Below are positions 822-11,112 of a stretch of DNA of 64,000 bases, in pieces (within the stretch, counting starts at the first letter, position 1; each line of letters opens with the position of its first letter). A model generated the notes under the pieces. It worked only from the letters and a program-made list of their open reading frames with translations. It made no database searches and had not been told where the DNA came from. The DNA is taken from contig JACUTU010000001.1 of the NCBI GenBank assembly GCA_014859685.1, forward strand, positions 1 through 64,000, given 5' to 3'. The DNA comes from Sulfurospirillum sp. GTDB taxonomy: Bacteria; Campylobacterota; Campylobacteria; Campylobacterales; Sulfurospirillaceae. A program made the position numbers and the translations under genes.

Positions 822-1160
822 TTAAACAATTTTTTTAATCAAAAAATGATAACACGCTACAATTTCAGCATCTAATTCTCTTTCCATCCCTTTGATGGTA
901 AAGTCATCAACACTTCCTATTTTAGCCCCACCGCCCAAAGAAGAACCATTTCTGACAGCATCACCCTTGACATTGAATAAAGGTCTACCACCACCTTTTG
1001 AGCTACCATCCCTGACTACACCATCTTTGATATTTCCAAGAGGTCTACCACCACCTTTTGAGCTACCATCTCTGACTACACCATCTTTGATATTTCCCAA
1101 AGGTTTTCCAGCTCCTATAGAGCTACCATCTCTAATAACACCGTCTTTAAAATTAGCCAT
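822..1160 (-). CDS. tandem 20-residue repeat protein
   Basis: A 112-residue protein built from about four copies of a 20-residue unit of the form N-[IV]-K-D-G-V-[VI]-R-D-G-S-S-x-G-G-G-[RK]-P-L-[GF], followed by a different 30-residue tail. The repeats are also visible in the DNA as near-identical 60-bp units between about 960 and 1160. Short glycine- and aspartate-bounded strands of this kind suggest a small closed beta-repeat (flower or propeller-like) fold, which is an inference. The start at 1160 is supported by AAAGGA upstream. Function unknown. Confidence 0.6.
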   Translation of the reverse strand: MANFKDGVIRDGSSIGAGKPLGNIKDGVVRDGSSKGGGRPLGNIKDGVVRDGSSKGGGRPLFNVKGDAVRNGSSLGGGAKIGSVDDFTIKGMERELDAEIVACYHFLIKKIV

Positions 1161-1230: not shown

Positions 1231-2442
1231 TTAATTTTCTATTATTTGATTCTTATTCAAGAAATTTTTTATTCCATTTTTTATTGTATTTAAAATAGTA
1301 AAATAGTTTAAATCATTACTATCCCATAGTATTGAAGTAGAAATATAAAGGGTTAAGGTATCGATACCAAATTGCTTGTGAATATTAGCAACCAAATGGG
1401 AAGATTCATCATTGCCATACTCTTCATGTGTAGCTATTGATTGCCCGACATCATTCAGATTATTTTTTAGGTCTATAAAAACTTTTTTAAGATATTCTAT
1501 ATCTTTGTAGGTTTTATTTTTTATGTCAAATTCCACATTTCCTTTTTCTCCTCCAAACAACAAATGAATATTATGTTCTCTATTGGCATTTGATGTTCCC
1601 AAATAAATAAATAGCTTAGTGTGTTCTGATAATTTAATCAAATCAAATTTAAAAGTATCTAAGATTTTACAATTGTTATCTTTTTGAAAAAAATTCGCAT
1701 AACTTTGATGTTTGGCAAAGTTAATCTGTTTAGATTTTAAAGGTGCCCCAGAGCTAAAATATTCATTTGAAATATAATTAGCATTTATTGAATTAGCAAT
1801 AGTTGCTGCAAAATGCCCTATGCCCGCATCACTATAATTTTGCGTAGCAATAATAGTGATAGGTGATTTTCTATCTACAAATGAACCGTATTCTGTATTG
1901 CCAGAAAAATTTTCTATCACTATTTCTGAAATATCTTTTATTTTTCTTAACCTCAGATTTCCAAACATTCTAATAGCATTTGTTATTTCGTCTTTGGTCA
2001 CTTCAAGCCTTATCTCTGCTTCATCAAGATTAAAATTTCTTCTTTCAGCTACGAGTTGATTTTTCTTTACAAATTGTCTAGCTTGTATATTTGAAATTGT
2101 TTCAAAAGACTCCTCTAAAATTCCATGAACTGCTCGAAGTTTATTTTTTTCTACAATAGATAAAATACTAGTGGTTATTAAAGAAATCACAGACCCAAAA
2201 ACAAAAATTCCCAATAAGGTTTCAATAAATCCAACTAGTGGATACTTATCAATAACCCCGGTATAATATCCAGGATCAACAAAAAATGATAAACTTGTCT
2301 CAAAAGAGTTATAAATAATTCCAAAAGAGACAACAATTATAAGAGAAGAGAATGCCAGAAGAACAAACTGAATAGCGATTGACATATTGGTAATTATGTC
2401 ACCTATTTTTTTAAACAATAAAAATAACTTTAACATAAGCAA
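1231..2442 (-). CDS. two-helix membrane protein resembling an ion channel
   Basis: A 403-residue protein. Residues about 20-45 and 72-95 are strong membrane segments, separated by a loop containing F-V-D-P-G-Y-Y-T-G. This helix, pore-loop, helix layout followed by a large soluble domain resembles bacterial potassium-channel or CASTOR/POLLUX-like channels, but no canonical selectivity filter is visible, so the resemblance is weak. The soluble part (residues about 100-400) is mixed alpha/beta, with a stretch around S-P-I-T-I-I-A-T-Q. AGGA precedes the ATG. It lies in the minus-strand accessory series downstream of a coiled-coil membrane protein. Confidence 0.55.
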   Translation of the reverse strand: MLMLKLFLLFKKIGDIITNMSIAIQFVLLAFSSLIIVVSFGIIYNSFETSLSFFVDPGYYTGVIDKYPLVGFIETLLGIFVFGSVISLITTSILSIVEKNKLRAVHGILEESFETISNIQARQFVKKNQLVAERRNFNLDEAEIRLEVTKDEITNAIRMFGNLRLRKIKDISEIVIENFSGNTEYGSFVDRKSPITIIATQNYSDAGIGHFAATIANSINANYISNEYFSSGAPLKSKQINFAKHQSYANFFQKDNNCKILDTFKFDLIKLSEHTKLFIYLGTSNANREHNIHLLFGGEKGNVEFDIKNKTYKDIEYLKKVFIDLKNNLNDVGQSIATHEEYGNDESSHLVANIHKQFGIDTLTLYISTSILWDSNDLNYFTILNTIKNGIKNFLNKNQIIEN

Positions 2443-2609
2443 TCCTAAATATTTTCATATTATAGCCTTCAATAAATCCTCTATAATAAGATTCATAACC
2501 CAGAAAATAGTTTTTAGCATATCATCTTTTGTACCTTTTTTCCTAAAATAAATTTTAATATTTTTGGATAGCGGTAAAATGACTTATGCTCTAATATAAA
2601 GAGATACTT

Positions 2610-3686
2610 TTATTCAATAGTTTTATTTAGAATTTTATCATCTCTAAACTTTTTAAGGTTCTTTTCATAATTTGTATTAAAAGCTCTGTCTACTAGCTTT
2701 GCTAATCCCAATATAAATAATATTGGTAATAAAACATTTTTAAATAAAAATAAAACCACTAAAGTAATAAAAGTATCAAATATTTCTTCTGAGGAGCTTT
2801 TTATTTTAGCCAGAATTGCATCTGTTTTAGATTTAATTCCAAAATCCCAAAAGCTATCACTATCATCAATTTCTTTCTCAATTACTTTTATTTCATTGTT
2901 GATATTAAGTATCTTTTCTTCTTTTTTTTCAATTTGTTCTTTTGTTTTCGCATCTTGCTCTTCAAAGATTGTTGTAACACTTTCAAGCAAAGTTTTATCA
3001 CTTTTTTTGATTGCTTTTATATCTTCTTTTAATTGGTTTCTTTCTGTTTCTAAAGTTTTTATTTTTGATTCTAAAGAAGCTATTTTTAACTCTTTTTCTT
3101 TTTCAAGTTTTTTATCATCTTCAGCTGATTGATGCATACTTGTTATTTTATTTTGCAATTTTTGTATTCTTTCTTCTGAAACTTGTGCCTTCATAGATTC
3201 TAATCCGGATTCAACAGAAATAACAGAAAAAGTCATAAGAGGAATTACAAACCTTAAAAAAAGTAATAAAAATACAATTCTTAGAACTTGATTTGTGAAT
3301 TCAATTGAAAAGGTGTTTTTGATTTTGACAAATATAAAAAAGAACACAATCAATGTAAGAATTGCATTAACTATGAAAGATTGCATGAAAACAATAATTA
3401 CTTTTTGTAATCCTAAAGACATTAATGATATTAACATCACCCAAGACATTTGCCCTACAAATTCTTTTAATGGTTCAAATAAACCTCCAATAATTGATAC
3501 ATTACTTGCTAAGCCGATTATTGATTCAAATGATTTAAGAGAAGCAAAAACAATTGATGTTTCTTTTAAACTCTCTAAATTCATAACATAAGCAGCCTTA
3601 TCTAATATATTAAGCCAAGCTAAACAAGTTAAAAAAGTTAATATAGTAAAAATCACTATGTTATTCTTTGTTATATTTTTAAACAC
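2610..3686 (-). CDS. multi-pass membrane protein with long coiled coil
   Basis: About 358 residues. Several hydrophobic segments lie in the first 165 residues, a charged coiled coil of about 110 residues follows (rich in K, E, Q and L), and one or two membrane helices sit near the C-terminus. I prefer the GTG at 3686 as start, because AAAGGAG sits five bases upstream of it. An in-frame ATG at 3719 has no good site. A 30-codon ORF ends on the TAG that overlaps this GTG, suggesting coupled translation. No family is recognised. The layout suggests a membrane-anchored sensor or scaffold, which is an inference. Confidence 0.55.
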   Translation of the reverse strand: MFKNITKNNIVIFTILTFLTCLAWLNILDKAAYVMNLESLKETSIVFASLKSFESIIGLASNVSIIGGLFEPLKEFVGQMSWVMLISLMSLGLQKVIIVFMQSFIVNAILTLIVFFFIFVKIKNTFSIEFTNQVLRIVFLLLFLRFVIPLMTFSVISVESGLESMKAQVSEERIQKLQNKITSMHQSAEDDKKLEKEKELKIASLESKIKTLETERNQLKEDIKAIKKSDKTLLESVTTIFEEQDAKTKEQIEKKEEKILNINNEIKVIEKEIDDSDSFWDFGIKSKTDAILAKIKSSSEEIFDTFITLVVLFLFKNVLLPILFILGLAKLVDRAFNTNYEKNLKKFRDDKILNKTIE

Positions 3687-3778
3687 TAAATCTCCTTTAT
3701 TATACTTTTTATAATACATTGTATTTTTGAAAATTGTTCTGATGAAGAGATAAGGTCATTTGCTGTATGTGTTACCAT
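3686..3778 (-). CDS. 30-residue ORF coupled to the next gene
   Basis: On the minus strand AAGGA precedes an ATG at 3778. The frame runs 30 codons (start MVTHTANDLI) and ends in TAG at 3686-3688, which shares one base with the GTG start of the downstream membrane protein (TAGTG). A good ribosome binding site plus an overlapping stop and start suggests a leader or very small protein whose translation feeds the next gene. The peptide has no recognised motif. Confidence 0.4.
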   Translation of the reverse strand: MVTHTANDLISSSEQFSKIQCIIKSIIKEI

Positions 3779-4166: not shown

Positions 4167-5933
4167 TTATTTAATTATGATTTCACAATCTACTTTAGTT
4201 TTTTTGTCTCTATAATATATGATTGAACCCTTTGGAGGATTATCTAATAAATATTTTTTCATTAAATCTTTTTTCCCAGTTTTGCTTTCATCTACAAAAT
4301 AAAATAAATTTACACTATCCATATTTTCTAAATTAACCCCATAGTTAACTCTGATTTTATCATTAATAGTATGTAGTCTTGTCTGTGCCATAAGAGTTCC
4401 TGGATTTATTTCTATACCAGAATCATTTTTTATTTTATTTTTTACCATTGTTTCTAATTCACCTCTTGTAAAAATATCATCATTATTTAGAGAATTAAAT
4501 ATATCTTGAAAATATTCCTTAACAGGTTTAGCATAACTTATTTTTTTTCTTTTACCGACATTTGAAGTATTATCATCTGTGCTTGTTACACTTGTTACAC
4601 TTGTCTCACTTATCAATTCAGAAATAATCATTTCTAAATCTTCCTTGCTATCTTTTAAAATATTGTCTTTAATAAAGTTAAAAAGTTTTGAGATTTCGCT
4701 CACTTTTTTGTAATATCTTGGTGCAATAAAACATATTCTAAATAAAGCTTGTTCCCATTCCTCATCAAAATAATCAGTTTCCTTGATATTTTCAAAATCT
4801 CTATTAAATTTTTCAATGTTTTCTTCCTCTTTTAATTTTGTAATGCTAAAAGCTAAGTTTTGATCCCAGGTAAGAAAATTTGGATAAAAATTTAGTAGCT
4901 CATATATATTTGGATACGCAATTTGTAAACATACTAAGCTGAAAAGTAAAGTTTTTTTAGATTGGTTTTTCATTATTTTTTCAGTCTCTACATTGTCTTC
5001 TAAAAAAATAGTAATTAAAGATAATGAATTTACTAGTCTTTTTATTGCCCTTGGATTACCACCAATAGTATAAGAAATAATAGTTTCAATATCTGATTCT
5101 AGAATTCCATTATTTTGATTGAAATCGATTTGGTTCAATAATGAAGATACATACTTACCAATATTATATTGACCCATAGGCATCATAAATGGTAATTGAA
5201 TAATTTTATCAAAGAATGCTCTAAATTCCCACTCATTTTCCTCTGTTCTTTTTCCAAATTTGTGTTCAAGTCCTTTTACAACAACTTGGTAATCAATAGC
5301 TAGAACAAAAACGCAACCATTTATAGAAAAAATATTTTTAAGTAATTCTAAAATTTTTACAGCTTCTTTTGGTTCTATTCTATCAAGATCATCAACATAG
5401 ACAATAATTTTTTTATATGGATTAGTAGGTCTATCCATTACTTCTTGAGAAAGTGAACTCAAACTATCTCTTAATTGTTTAATTGAATTACCTTTTGTAT
5501 GTAATAACTCTTCAGTAATTGCATTAACTTTGTCATTTAATAATGATGTACCAACTCTTAGTGCGCCTTTAAAGATTGTAGTTGCTGTTTCTTTAATTTT
5601 TTTAGATTTAGCATTATTTGGATCTGAGTCAATCATTTCATCAATAATTTCATTAATAATTTTTAATAATGCTTCTTCTGGAGTTGAGAGCAAAGAATTT
5701 TCCCATGAATTTATCCAAATCTGTTTATATATGCCTTCTTCATTTAAATCATGATATATAGAATTTAGAATTGATGTTTTACCACTTCCCCATTCACCTT
5801 GAACTCCAATAGTTAAAGGAGTTGGGCATTTTTTTATAAATTTTGATAATGCATTAGCATGTTTCTTAATATCTAATTGATCTTCAGCACCTCTTGGATT
5901 TGCTTCATCTACTATACCTATTAATTTTTCCAT
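4167..5933 (-). CDS. KAP family P-loop NTPase
   Basis: A 588-residue predicted ATPase. Walker A is G-E-W-G-S-G-K-T-S near residues 46-54, in the typical KAP context G-V-Q-G. Walker B is I-I-V-Y-V-D-D-L-D-R-I near residues 175-185. A further conserved KAP feature, G-G-N-P-R-A-I-K-R, lies near residue 293. Many KAP NTPases carry membrane helices between Walker A and B. None is visible here; instead four small membrane proteins are encoded just upstream in the same transcript and may provide the anchor. The C-terminal 130 residues form an extra domain, possibly winged-helix, that I cannot name. KAP NTPases include the phage-exclusion protein PifA, so a defence or membrane-stress role is plausible but unproven. 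Confidence 0.85.
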   Translation of the reverse strand: MEKLIGIVDEANPRGAEDQLDIKKHANALSKFIKKCPTPLTIGVQGEWGSGKTSILNSIYHDLNEEGIYKQIWINSWENSLLSTPEEALLKIINEIIDEMIDSDPNNAKSKKIKETATTIFKGALRVGTSLLNDKVNAITEELLHTKGNSIKQLRDSLSSLSQEVMDRPTNPYKKIIVYVDDLDRIEPKEAVKILELLKNIFSINGCVFVLAIDYQVVVKGLEHKFGKRTEENEWEFRAFFDKIIQLPFMMPMGQYNIGKYVSSLLNQIDFNQNNGILESDIETIISYTIGGNPRAIKRLVNSLSLITIFLEDNVETEKIMKNQSKKTLLFSLVCLQIAYPNIYELLNFYPNFLTWDQNLAFSITKLKEEENIEKFNRDFENIKETDYFDEEWEQALFRICFIAPRYYKKVSEISKLFNFIKDNILKDSKEDLEMIISELISETSVTSVTSTDDNTSNVGKRKKISYAKPVKEYFQDIFNSLNNDDIFTRGELETMVKNKIKNDSGIEINPGTLMAQTRLHTINDKIRVNYGVNLENMDSVNLFYFVDESKTGKKDLMKKYLLDNPPKGSIIYYRDKKTKVDCEIIIK

Positions 5934-5958
5934 TTATTTTCCTTTAATTAAATTTGTC

Positions 5959-6816
5959 CTATTTTATTGGGGCATTCCAACCACTATTTAGATCATTAAA
6001 TCTTTTTTTTAATAAATCATAATATTTATCAAATGGGTTATTTAAAATATCAAGTGCTTTTGCAATAACTGGAAATAGTATCAATGTTAAAGAACCACTT
6101 AATTCAAACAATGAATCTGATAAAGAGAATATAGTTATTAATGAATTATTTAATATAAATTCTTGTAAAATTGTTAAAAAAGATAGTTCATAAAATGATG
6201 AAAAAACAACTAAAATAATCAGAGACAAGATGAATGAATATAATAAACTATTTGTATTATTTCTCAATTCCTGAATATCAATCCATTTCCATTTATATTG
6301 ATTTTGTTTATCCAGAGCATCCGATAAATTACGTTCCGTTTGTTCAATTAAACTTTTTAAATCATTCCATCTCTGATTTGCTTCTTGTCCTGCTTTACTT
6401 CGTTCACTATAAAAGCCATCTTGGCGTTTGGTTATATCAAGAGATTGAATATGTTTGAGCTCTATATTTAATTTTTGCAAGTCTTTATTTGATTTATGAA
6501 ATAATTTTAAATTTTCATCACTGAGTTTGATCATTTCATCTGGTATGGACTCAATATTTGTTGGAAAGCTTTCTTTTTTATTGGACAAATACCAATATAA
6601 CGATCCATAGATGATTAATATAAAATATGTTAATGCAACTAAACTTGTCGCTGTTGCAACTGGGAATATAAAAAAACCAATTAGTGGTGGTAGAACAACA
6701 CCAATAATCAATCCCATTAAACCTAACATATATGATAGAATAACTATAGCAACAACCCATACGAAATATGAAATTACTAGTATTATCAAGATGTCAGTTA
6801 GACCTATTTCATTCAT
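5959..6816 (-). CDS. four-helix membrane protein of the KAP cluster
   Basis: A 285-residue protein. Two to three hydrophobic segments lie in residues 8-75, a soluble helical section with coiled-coil character covers residues about 95-180, and two more membrane helices lie around 190-255. AAGGA precedes the ATG at 6816. It ends 25 bases before the KAP NTPase start and begins 13 bases after the preceding gene, so it is almost certainly co-transcribed. No family is recognised. A membrane partner for the soluble KAP NTPase is a reasonable guess. Confidence 0.6.
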   Translation of the reverse strand: MNEIGLTDILIILVISYFVWVVAIVILSYMLGLMGLIIGVVLPPLIGFFIFPVATATSLVALTYFILIIYGSLYWYLSNKKESFPTNIESIPDEMIKLSDENLKLFHKSNKDLQKLNIELKHIQSLDITKRQDGFYSERSKAGQEANQRWNDLKSLIEQTERNLSDALDKQNQYKWKWIDIQELRNNTNSLLYSFILSLIILVVFSSFYELSFLTILQEFILNNSLITIFSLSDSLFELSGSLTLILFPVIAKALDILNNPFDKYYDLLKKRFNDLNSGWNAPIK

Positions 6817-6829
6817 TTAAAATCCTTGC

Positions 6830-7240
6830 TTATTTAATAGTGATATCACAATATTTTTTCAAATTGAATATTGCTTCATCAGGAATTTCCATTCTATAAA
6901 AATTATAATAGTCTAATATATATTTACTATAATCTTCACATGGAAACTTATCGTACTCTTTGTTTAGGGCGCCTTCTTTTTCTTTAATTTTGTAAATTTC
7001 TACTTCTCTTATAGTTTTCTTACCAAGTTCATCCAACCCTTCACTAAAAGAGGTTTCCCAGTCTTTATACTTTTCTTTTAAGTCAGAATCTTCTATTTCA
7101 TAACCAGCTATTTTGAGTTCAAAAAATAAATCATGATTTGAACTATTTTGAACGAATATATTTGCCCATACGCCTAAAAAAACTCCTATAAAAAAAATAG
7201 GTGTAAAAAATTTAAAAAAACTTTTAATACTCTCTATCAT
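6830..7240 (-). CDS. single-pass membrane protein of the KAP cluster
   Basis: A 136-residue protein with one N-terminal membrane helix (residues about 10-32) followed by a charged, mostly helical domain, probably on the outer face of the membrane. Its ATG overlaps the end of the previous gene by four bases (7237-7240), a strong sign of translational coupling. No family is recognised. Confidence 0.6.
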   Translation of the reverse strand: MIESIKSFFKFFTPIFFIGVFLGVWANIFVQNSSNHDLFFELKIAGYEIEDSDLKEKYKDWETSFSEGLDELGKKTIREVEIYKIKEKEGALNKEYDKFPCEDYSKYILDYYNFYRMEIPDEAIFNLKKYCDITIK

Positions 7241-7512
7241 TTTTTGCCCTCATCAATCTTACTTATTTGTTCTTGTACTTTCTTGTTTTTTATCCATTCG
7301 TCAAAATCTTTTTGCAAATTTTTGGGAATATTTTGTATATTTTTTGATTGAAATTCTTGAAACAATACTTCTTCAGCGTCCATTCGCTTAAAATACTTGT
7401 GCTGGACAAGATCCAATCCTACAAGTCCAACTATAAACCCTATAAATATTCCTAGTCCAATGATTAACATAGTGGACCTAAGTTCTCTTTCTGCAACTGT
7501 TACATAAGCCAT
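7237..7512 (-). CDS. small single-pass membrane protein of the KAP cluster
   Basis: A 91-residue protein. One membrane helix at residues about 14-36 contains glycine spacing (G-L-G-I-F-I-G-F-I-V-G), which often mediates helix packing. A lysine-rich soluble tail follows. AAAGGA lies upstream of the ATG. The gene overlaps the next one by four bases. Function unknown. Confidence 0.55.
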   Translation of the reverse strand: MAYVTVAERELRSTMLIIGLGIFIGFIVGLVGLDLVQHKYFKRMDAEEVLFQEFQSKNIQNIPKNLQKDFDEWIKNKKVQEQISKIDEGKK

Positions 7513-7524
7513 TTTGTTCCTTTA

Positions 7525-8064
7525 TTAAATAGCAAAATCACTATTGACTTTACCTTTTATAGTTTGTTTTAATGCATTTCTTATTTCATCTCTTACTTGT
7601 TTATTGCTACAATCAATTCTTTGTGAAAAACTTTTTCCATGTTGAATGCCACTGATTACAACATTCCACTCTCTCTCTTTACCTCTTTTAACTCTTGTAT
7701 AACCATTTGCTACATTTTCAATTTCATCTGTTCTATAGGTTCTTCTTCTGTATAATCCTGTAATAGGATTTAACGTAATAAAATCCAAAAATGTTCTTAT
7801 TTGATCTGCAGCTGGAATAATAACTTGATCATTTTCTACAATTAAAGGTTTATAATTCACTATAAAGCCAATAACGCTTAAAATAATAGATCCAATAAAA
7901 ATTGTACCAAAAGAATATAATAAAAATATCTGAATTTCTTTTAATATTTCAAAAATAATAGCAAAGAAAAGTAAGCATAAGTTTATAAGAATTCCCCAGC
8001 CTATTGTAGATAAAAAAACACTCACTCCTAGTTTAAAATCTTTTACTGTTCTAACTTGATTCAT
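7525..8064 (-). CDS. two-helix membrane protein, PH-like soluble domain
   Basis: A 179-residue protein with two membrane helices (residues about 18-45 and 48-70). A beta-rich soluble part then reads I-V-E-N-D-Q-V-I-I-P and contains a conserved-looking R-R-R-T-Y-R-T-D-E-I block. The layout resembles bacterial PH-domain membrane proteins (YdbS-like), but this is a shape-level comparison only. AAGGG precedes the ATG. It is the first of the tightly spaced genes leading to the KAP NTPase. Confidence 0.5.
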   Translation of the reverse strand: MNQVRTVKDFKLGVSVFLSTIGWGILINLCLLFFAIIFEILKEIQIFLLYSFGTIFIGSIILSVIGFIVNYKPLIVENDQVIIPAADQIRTFLDFITLNPITGLYRRRTYRTDEIENVANGYTRVKRGKEREWNVVISGIQHGKSFSQRIDCSNKQVRDEIRNALKQTIKGKVNSDFAI

Positions 8065-8104
8065 CGTTTTCCCTTAAATATTATTATCTATACCTTACGC
8101 ACGC

Positions 8105-8785
8105 TTAACTATGCATATGAGTGTATTTATTTTGAGCTTCATAAAACTTTATAACAGCAGGCACAAAGATTGACCTCCAATCTTTTTCATTTATTAGGTT
8201 GCTTTTTGCATTGTTGCATATTGGACAAGCAAAAATAGAGTTTTCGTAAGTATATTTATTTGAGAGTGAATCTTTTCGTTCTATCTCTAACTCACCTAAA
8301 GAGCGCTTTTGTTTACCATTTAAAGTAAAGTTTTTAGCTTTTTTTGTAAGAAACCCCAGCCGCGCTAGTTCATTACCTCTTTTTATAGCTATAGCTTCCA
8401 GTTCTTTAGCTGTTATGCCACAGTACCCACATACTCCTTTATGCTTTTCATACCATTGCATAAATCCATAAAAATCAGCAAATAAATCACTTCTCTCTTC
8501 ATTATAGTACTTCGTATATAATTCATGATATTCTTGGAAAAAGCCAATTAGTTCTTCATATAAATTATCAATGTATTTCTCATCATTTGTAAGTTTAAGA
8601 AGTTCACTTTTTATGAAATTTTTATTGACTCTATAATTTAGATTTACACTTTTATTTTTAGAAATAAGAAATTCTTTTTTTTCCTTTTTATTTTTTATCT
8701 TTTCTGCTTCTTTGAGATACTTTTTTGTAGCTTCTATTCTGTTCTTATAACGTAAATTAAAATAAAACTCTTGTAATTTTGTCAT
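8105..8785 (-). CDS. HNH-type (treble-clef) endonuclease
   Basis: A 226-residue protein. The first zinc pair is C-G-Y-C near residue 118. The second is in S-I-F-A-C-P-I-C-N-N-A-K-S-N near residue 190, preceded by L-G-E-L-E-I-E-R-K-D. This matches the HNH variant in which the leading His is replaced within an L-E-[VI]-[DE]-R-x-D motif. The N-terminal half is helical and lysine-rich and may bind DNA. It lies between a 63-residue ORF and the KAP-cluster membrane genes, all on the minus strand. A nuclease next to a WYL regulator and a KAP NTPase fits a defence-type locus, though the target is unknown. Confidence 0.7.
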   Translation of the reverse strand: MTKLQEFYFNLRYKNRIEATKKYLKEAEKIKNKKEKKEFLISKNKSVNLNYRVNKNFIKSELLKLTNDEKYIDNLYEELIGFFQEYHELYTKYYNEERSDLFADFYGFMQWYEKHKGVCGYCGITAKELEAIAIKRGNELARLGFLTKKAKNFTLNGKQKRSLGELEIERKDSLSNKYTYENSIFACPICNNAKSNLINEKDWRSIFVPAVIKFYEAQNKYTHMHS

Positions 8786-8788
8786 ATA

Positions 8789-8980
8789 CTATTTCCCTTT
8801 AGATAGTAATAAAATATTTTTATTATCTTGAAAATTTTCTAAATTATAACAAGAAGTAATTAATGTTTGAATATGATGAAACTGTGAAAAAACTAAATTC
8901 AAAACACTTTTTAATTTTATAGCAATTTTTAAAAATTTATAGACACTTTCTAGATGATCTATCTCTTCTTTTTTCGTCAT
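8789..8980 (-). CDS. small hypothetical protein
   Basis: A 63-residue ORF with AAGGA upstream of the ATG. It ends four bases before the HNH gene start, so it is probably translated in the same message. The sequence is helical with no recognised motif. It could be an antitoxin- or immunity-like partner of the nuclease, which is pure inference from position. Confidence 0.45.
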   Translation of the reverse strand: MTKKEEIDHLESVYKFLKIAIKLKSVLNLVFSQFHHIQTLITSCYNLENFQDNKNILLLSKGK

Positions 8981-9015
8981 GTTTCTATCCTTTATTACTA
9001 TTTTTGTACTGCGAA

Positions 9016-9936
9016 CTATTTTAAGTATACTTTTACTCTCTCCACTACCTTATCCCTAAGCCAAGCAGGTTCAACTACTTTGATATAAGGTATCCACTGC
9101 ATGATAGTGGGGAGTATCTCCATCTCATGGGTGACTTTAAGGCTAAACTCCATGCTCTCATCTTCTTCGTTGATACTGAGTAGTCTTTGAGATTTGCAAA
9201 TCGGTTTTCGCTGGAAGTATTTACCAGTGTTATCATCCATTTGTAACACTACTTCAAATGGCTCAACTTCTAGTGTAAACCAGATATTGATAGCATTTTC
9301 AAGCGCTTCATCGAGTTTTTTAGAACGTGTAAAGTATTTTTCCAATACTTGGATATTGCTCATGCTTTTGATGTGGTATTTTTTAAGTTCATTGTTTCTA
9401 CTATCAAGCGCTATGAGATACCAAAAGCCATCAAAGTTTGCAATTTTCAGAGGCTTTACTCCTATCTCAAAGCTTTTTGAGTGGAGTTTATACTTACATG
9501 TAAGGATTGCTTTGTTGAGTATAGCTTGTTCTATGAGGTTGATTTCACTGAGAAAATCATCTATCTTTTCTATATCAAGATTTGCATAGATGGAGCTTGT
9601 ATCTTTATTTTTGATTTTAGAGAGAAGGTGTTTTGCTCTACCATGAAATTTACTCCCTAAACTCTCACTCACTTTCTCAAGCATATCAAGGACTAGTTGG
9701 TCTTCTACTGAAGCTATCTTTTCAAGATGAAATCCCTCTTGCATCTTCCACTTTTTACCATCTTTGACTATAGGAAAAGAGATAAGCTTTTCATTAAAAT
9801 CTCTCTGGATTGTTCTTGTACTTGTGTTGAATTCTTCAGCTAGGTCAGTGACTGAAAGACTCTCTCCATCATAGAGTTTTTTAAGTATGCTTACAAGCCT
9901 TGTCATCGCTTTATCGTAGTCGTGTTTATATCCCAT
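9016..9936 (-). CDS. WYL-domain transcriptional regulator
   Basis: A 306-residue regulator. The N-terminal winged helix (residues about 15-65) contains L-A-E-E-F-N-T-S-T-R-T-I-Q-R-D-F. The WYL domain follows, with the signature F-W-Y-L-I-A-L-D near residue 170, and a C-terminal WCX-like extension ends in W-L-R-D-K-V-V-E-R-V. WYL regulators often control phage-defence and DNA-damage genes. It is the first gene of the minus-strand accessory series, so it may repress that set. It carries one TTACATGTAA site (9496-9505), unlike everything downstream of it. Confidence 0.88.
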   Translation of the reverse strand: MGYKHDYDKAMTRLVSILKKLYDGESLSVTDLAEEFNTSTRTIQRDFNEKLISFPIVKDGKKWKMQEGFHLEKIASVEDQLVLDMLEKVSESLGSKFHGRAKHLLSKIKNKDTSSIYANLDIEKIDDFLSEINLIEQAILNKAILTCKYKLHSKSFEIGVKPLKIANFDGFWYLIALDSRNNELKKYHIKSMSNIQVLEKYFTRSKKLDEALENAINIWFTLEVEPFEVVLQMDDNTGKYFQRKPICKSQRLLSINEEDESMEFSLKVTHEMEILPTIMQWIPYIKVVEPAWLRDKVVERVKVYLK

Positions 9937-10446: not shown

Positions 10447-11112
10447 CTAGACAAGCTTATGTCTTTTTGCTAAAAAGAGTTCTATATCTTTTGCAATTTC
10501 ATCGATAGCATTTGTTGCAGGTGCGTAGATAACCTTAGAAAAGAGTTTATCGTCTATATAGCTACTTGGTTCTGTGTTGTTGAGGATAGAGTATTTAATT
10601 TTTGAGAGTTTGAGCATATCCGTATCTATCACCAAGCCACTCGTGCCTATAACTACTATCATCTCACAATTCATGAGCTCTGCATGAAGATGTTTATATT
10701 GTGGGGCTCTCTCATAAAAAAAGACGACATCAGGTCTTAAGGTTTTATTGCAAACTGGGCAGCGTTTAGTGTTATCTTGAGGAGCGTAGCCGATATCTTC
10801 TTTGTAAGCGCAACTATCTCTCATGCAGCGGATATTTCTGATAAATCCATGAAGGTGGATAATCTCTTCACATCCAGCTTTTTCAAACATATCATCTACA
10901 TTTTGTGTAATGATAGCTATATTTTGGGGGTACTTGTTTTTTAACTGGGATATAACTTTGTGTGCATAGTTGGGTTCTTTGCTTCCAAGTTCAATCCTTC
11001 TTTGGTTATAAAACTCTATGGTTTGAGTTCGATTTCTCTCAAGGCAACCTTTGGTGCAAACATCTTCTATTTTGATGTCATTCCACATGCCATCACTTCC
11101 TCTAATAAGAAA
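10447..11112 (-). pseudogene. sirtuin (SIR2/CobB-type) deacylase lacking its N-terminus
   Basis: The remaining about 213-residue frame has the sirtuin core: T-Q-N-V-D-D-M near residue 60, the catalytic His in H-L-H-G-F-I, a zinc ribbon of two cysteine pairs (residues about 88-120), V-V-F-F-Y-E, and the I-G-T-S-G NAD motif. The family normally begins with a G-A-G-I-S NAD-binding loop, which is missing. Coding similarity continues upstream of the first ATG (I-R-G-S-D-G-M-W, as in F-R-x-S-D-G-L-W) until a TAA at 11113-11115 that belongs to the REP-like repeat. The repeat insertion, or a deletion ending at it, therefore removed the start. Loss of the NAD loop should abolish activity. Confidence 0.8.

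Follow-up and report, generated by a model that had tools for sequence, protein, structure and literature searches.

A candidate mosaic defence cassette around a soluble KAP NTPase, with a recurring 179-residue membrane partner, in Sulfurospirillum

The window analysed here is a stretch of 64,000 nucleotides (nt) from Sulfurospirillum sp. (GenBank assembly GCA_014859685.1, contig JACUTU010000001.1, positions 1 to 64,000). Eight genes of its minus strand, at positions 4167–9936, form the locus under study. By order of transcription they code for a WYL-domain transcriptional regulator (306 aa; 9016..9936), a 63-aa open reading frame (ORF; 8789..8980), a predicted HNH-type nuclease (226 aa; 8105..8785), membrane proteins of 179 (7525..8064), 91 (7237..7512), 136 (6830..7240) and 285 aa (5959..6816), and a soluble KAP P-loop NTPase of 588 aa (4167..5933). 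The original prediction made from this DNA had described eight co-directional genes with short gaps or overlaps, and this is what is found: the intergenic distances from WYL to KAP are 35, 3, 40, 12, -4, 13 and 25 nt, the negative value being the 4-nt overlap of the 91-aa and 136-aa genes. A purine-rich Shine-Dalgarno-like sequence precedes most starts, including that of the 63-aa ORF, which has a GC content of 0.198 and matches no Pfam family. Scans of the locus for promoters and terminators gave no clear excess over shuffled sequence. All seven genes after WYL are AT-rich cargo at the contig end, with a GC content at third codon positions (GC3) of 0.12–0.26.

Several defence systems (PifA, Tmn, QatA) employ KAP NTPases. 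The KAP protein of the window scores 137 bits against Pfam KAP_NTPase (PF07693; cut-off 20) and its Walker A (GVQGEWGSGKTS) and Walker B (VYVDDLDR) motifs are intact and conserved, which places it among the KAP P-loop NTPases. The interval between the two motifs reaches a Kyte-Doolittle maximum of 0.51 and has no hydrophobic helix, as had been predicted, and the one hydrophobic call in the protein (residues 194–213) falls inside the NTPase core. The accompanying idea that a membrane anchor was split off from the KAP protein was rejected. The best 80 KAP loci were taken from a scan of 84,980 species genomes. Among the KAP proteins collected, the insert lacks a transmembrane-like helix in 62 of the 64 relatives having both motifs; solubility is therefore the norm in this KAP subfamily and implies no split-off anchor. 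The defence KAP protein QatA was purified as a heptamer or octamer (PMC13279940).

The KAP protein is laid out as a conserved core (residues 1–448), an SSVTSV junction and a variable carboxyl-terminal module (449–588), divergence between relatives setting in right after the SSVTSV-like motif. Tails have no detectable similarity (z<4) in 17 of 81 KAP pairs whose cores are 60–97% identical. The KAP of locus L045 illustrates this pattern when compared with those of L041 (core identity 0.77, tail z 0.3), L024 (0.75, z 1.0) and L042 (0.73, z 0.5), while L024 and L042, with a core identity of 0.75, have a tail in common at 67%. On sequence comparison, then, the tail is exchanged between conserved cores, since cores up to 77% identical bear unrelated tails. 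The tail of the window protein has no relative among the collected ORFs, no plasmid match and nothing meaningful among PDB sequences; its similarity to DUF7669 (E 0.096) lies below the cut-off and is merely a lead. Note that L041 and L042 have the same membrane partner and only distantly related KAP tails, and that L024 and L042 have a common tail and different partners. The tail thus does not track the partner, a pattern from which a sensor role is suggested. By sequence, the protein is a soluble P-loop ATPase whose motifs are intact, whose core is conserved and whose carboxyl-terminal module is exchangeable.

Two structure models, one of the KAP protein and one of the 179-aa protein, were built with AlphaFold2 without rows from annotated plasmid records. 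In the KAP model (39 sequences) the predicted local distance difference test score (pLDDT) is mostly >85 over the core and poor over the tail. The solved folds closest to the core model are the RdrA rings of RADAR, a defence system, followed by Orc/Cdc6. All 39 aligned relatives (39/39) match the PADLOC models of PifA, QatA and PDC-S20 over the KAP domain. In the KAP tree the window protein falls among proteobacterial KAPs, together with L029 (support 100/99); L024, L041, L042 and L045 form a separate Campylobacterota clade (99/99).

All four small membrane proteins expected ahead of KAP have membrane segments by hydropathy: two in the 179-aa protein, one each in the 91-aa (residues 10–38) and 136-aa (7–26) single-pass proteins, and in the multi-pass 285-aa protein an amino-terminal block followed by segments 187–218 and 239–258. 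The 285-aa protein also features a cytoplasmic coiled coil and the motif KRQDGFYSERSKAGQEAN. The 179-aa model (pLDDT 68) consists of two helices followed by a beta-sandwich and its carboxyl-terminal helix, and its best Foldseek matches are mostly PH domains (probability up to 0.99, E ~0.09 or worse); the protein can be described as two membrane helices joined to a domain modelled as PH-like. Neither the 91-aa nor the 136-aa membrane protein has a convincing homologue in 249 genomes. The plasmid and phage searches with the 179-aa protein gave no match, and scans of viral contigs with the 285-aa protein or KAP, each alone or as an alignment, and with the KAP tail returned no relatives. Weak matches of the small proteins to KilA-N, TcpE and spanins were put down to chance. 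A relative of the 285-aa protein beside a second KAP in L040, a single weak match (E 0.003), is not relied on.

Co-occurrence of KAP with the membrane genes, which had been proposed as a check, holds for one of them. This is the 179-aa protein, with a homologue at 29 nt from KAP in L041, another at 26 nt in L042, and a fused form ~390 nt upstream of KAP in L045; the four membrane genes together were not found elsewhere in the genomes searched. These three loci are all from Campylobacterota, with KAPs of a different lineage from that of the window. The 179-aa proteins of L041, L042 and the window cluster in a single clade (support 1.000). Two KAP lineages thus share the pairing, a point in favour of a functional link. 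Homologues of the 285-aa protein occur in L113 (43%) and L022 (29% over 112 aa) and both adjoin a 179-aa homologue. Two loci that lack KAP, L113 and one in an Alteromonas plasmid, have the 179-aa and 285-aa genes side by side. In L113 the 285-aa homologue (7586-9835) is fused to ankyrin repeats, with no KAP, and is neighboured by the 179-aa homologue, a probable GIY-YIG nuclease, a GGACT protein and a WYL gene. Two-helix PH-like membrane proteins are also encoded amid replication genes of T4-like phage contigs (L165 3578-4129, L166 7136-7735, L167 3075-3674).

The neighbourhoods of KAP relatives bear out the suspected defence context. DUF2779 nucleases are encoded within 4 kb of KAP in 15 loci and GIY-YIG genes are neighbours in 6; GmrSD-type and PvuRts1I-like/SRA enzymes are likewise found nearby, and a Butyrivibrio plasmid has McrBC and a WYL gene next to a more distantly related KAP. 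A ~85-aa coiled-coil protein recurs near KAP in 15 Bacteroidota loci, often directly upstream (for example L078 9725-9982 and L094 9711-9968). The HNH-type nuclease, predicted as part of the set, has CxxC zinc-binding pairs and scores barely above the cut-off of Pfam PF01844 (21.8 vs 21.4 bits). Its relatives adjoin WYL and DUF2779 genes in L155, are found in restriction-gene surroundings on contig C23 of the window's own genome, and directly follow a QatABCD operon in L154 (8195-8767), where the relative is a possible fifth gene of some Qat systems.

The WYL regulator, said to lead the set, is confirmed as a gene with helix-turn-helix, WYL and WCX parts (Pfam PF13280, 36.6 bits, cut-off 21.8; PF25583, 42.8 bits); its membership in the set is uncertain. 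The gene has a host-like GC3 of 0.355, resembling that of the two genes next outside it, namely a 136-aa ORF outside the cluster (0.343) and a Sir2-like gene (0.355). The difference in GC3 from the other seven genes means that joint arrival of all eight is not required. In genome G065 a Sir2-like gene and a relative of the outer 136-aa ORF come after a WYL relative, and in G078 a relative of that ORF lies ~3 kb from a WYL relative. Composition and these neighbourhoods together suggest that WYL may have resided here first, the cargo inserting next to it later. WYL relatives also adjoin McrBC-like, type I-B CRISPR (Cas8b confirmed) and Sir2-like genes. The Sir2-family gene of the window (10447-11088, minus strand) begins past the usual amino-terminal GAGxS region and is likely 5'-truncated; it lies beside an ABC transporter gene.

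The searches of PADLOC, NCBIfam and the literature returned no named system of this composition, in agreement with what had been noted from the DNA. QatA, the KAP protein of QatABCD, is reported to bind DNA and form heptamers or octamers (PMC13279940). The window KAP core matches it at E 9e-29, but the protein reaches only 111.8 bits against the QatA equivalog cut-off of 600, no Pfam or PADLOC match to QatB, QatC (QueC-like) or QatD (TatD-like) was found among the genes scanned, and its partners are membrane proteins. PifA of the F plasmid is a KAP protein described as causing death via membrane depolarisation (PMC8594841) and proposed as a membrane-directed abortive infection protein. The similarity to it is confined to the KAP domain (E 2e-32; profile positions 8-325 of 720), and PifA was tested as a single-gene abortive infection system, whereas the window has several linked membrane genes. 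Tmn is a KAP-family NTPase serving anti-phage defence (PMC11846954) whose NTPase carries two transmembrane domains within it, in contrast to the window KAP insert, which has none. The window protein matches the PADLOC models of PDC-S20 (E 2e-31; profile 17-357 of 464), a candidate system only, whose listed definition does not comprise linked membrane genes. Among solved structures the KAP core model matches RdrA of RADAR best (E 2e-7, TM-score 0.38); this is fold similarity only, at 12-15% identity, and no deaminase (RdrB) is among the Pfam matches of the locus.

These data support a mosaic defence cassette around a soluble KAP switch in which the link between KAP and the 179-aa protein recurs, and its best reading is a candidate variant of the KAP-NTPase defence represented by PifA, QatA and Tmn. 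We put at about 40% the probability that the eight-gene locus is a horizontally acquired anti-phage cassette whose KAP switch drives membrane effectors, and count low-GC3 cargo beside genes of higher GC3 in its favour. From QatA, RdrA and PifA we infer that the proteins may work as one machine with a ring, a sensing tail and killing membrane proteins. The KAP core would assemble into a ring like those of QatA and RdrA, and its variable carboxyl-terminal tail would sense infection in the form of phage DNA or protein. An ATP-driven rearrangement of the ring would then recruit or open a membrane module composed of the 179-aa and 285-aa proteins, and perhaps of the 91-aa and 136-aa proteins too, which would damage or depolarise the membrane so that infection is aborted. 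The HNH nuclease might cleave DNA as an accessory effector, and the WYL protein would either regulate the locus or be its older neighbour.

Several results weigh against such a cassette. The complete eight-gene set was found nowhere else among the genomes searched. A general enrichment of membrane genes near KAP had to be rejected (49/156 flanking genes vs 362/1273 controls), the figures for the window's own KAP clade (12/25 vs 57/180) being suggestive only. Homologues of the 179-aa protein are also found in the T4-like phage contigs and as solo genes and are thus not specific for this system, and in L024 a close KAP is accompanied by a nuclease but not by a 179-aa protein. The AlphaFold2 model of the KAP tail is unreliable, the 179-aa model is of moderate quality and its Foldseek E-values are not significant. 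It is a real possibility that the locus is a defence island in which a solo KAP, a solo HNH nuclease, WYL and unrelated membrane genes are juxtaposed and do not form one machine. KAP relatives mostly lack the 179-aa protein, as L024 does, and KAP alone makes up the PADLOC candidate PDC-S20; HNH relatives stand by defence genes, including those of Qat and restriction systems, where this cassette is absent, the 91-aa and 136-aa proteins are orphans and the composition of WYL is unlike that of the cargo. What speaks for a cassette over mere juxtaposition is the tight spacing of the eight genes, with one overlap, and the recurrence of the 179-aa protein, which adjoins KAP in three other loci (making two KAP lineages in total) and the 285-aa protein in two.

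The nuclease could instead be the main effector, with the KAP ring as DNA sensor or loader, HNH cutting DNA and the membrane proteins merely bringing the complex to where phage DNA enters. The DNA binding of QatA (PMC13279940), the HNH relative directly after QatABCD in L154, the pairing of KAP with an Exo_endo_phos nuclease in L024 and the several nuclease types neighbouring KAP relatives fit this scheme, which is nevertheless doubtful; the KAP-membrane pairs of L041 and L042, which have no directly adjacent nuclease, speak against it. That the genes form a host-lineage complex for housekeeping or envelope stress, and not for defence, is very improbable: solo relatives of the 179-aa protein do occur in ordinary Campylobacterota contexts, but the distribution is patchy, with any KAP match in 35/249 genomes and only one close relative among the others, the cargo has low GC3 and defence-gene neighbours, and its insertion point lies between different core genes in each genome. 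Returning to the KAP-driven membrane cassette, a more general form of it appears unlikely at present, namely a KAP immune-switch family in which a ring-forming core with an exchangeable carboxyl-terminal sensor at a fixed SSVTSV junction would signal to a separately encoded two-helix/PH-like membrane effector, as a split and modular counterpart of PifA and Tmn. If the KAP-driven reading of this locus is right, sensor tail, ATPase core and membrane effector would be separable pieces, each testable individually, and tail swapping at the fixed junction would suggest how the KAP family alters recognition.

The AT-rich block runs beyond the end of KAP as far as the first base of the contig. Past a 447-nt gap downstream, two further AT-rich membrane genes of the minus strand (1231..3719), coding for proteins of 369 aa (2610-3719) and 403 aa (1231-2442), may belong to a separate operon within this island, whose left part is missing since the window begins at base 1 of its contig (C7). 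The 369-aa protein has a coiled coil and a relative in L145 (8042-8866), a 40-kb contig that also bears a WYL relative and parA/parB-like genes. The 403-aa protein features an ion-channel-like amino terminus with a degenerate filter, and its carboxyl-terminal part is related to Ion_trans proteins encoded near KAP genes of Bacteroidota (L059, L071, L092). A 112-aa repeat protein (822-1160, minus strand) matches Pfam Bflower_3 (6-fold beta flower) and has close relatives (up to 53%) near KAP genes of SAR86 (L036, L038).
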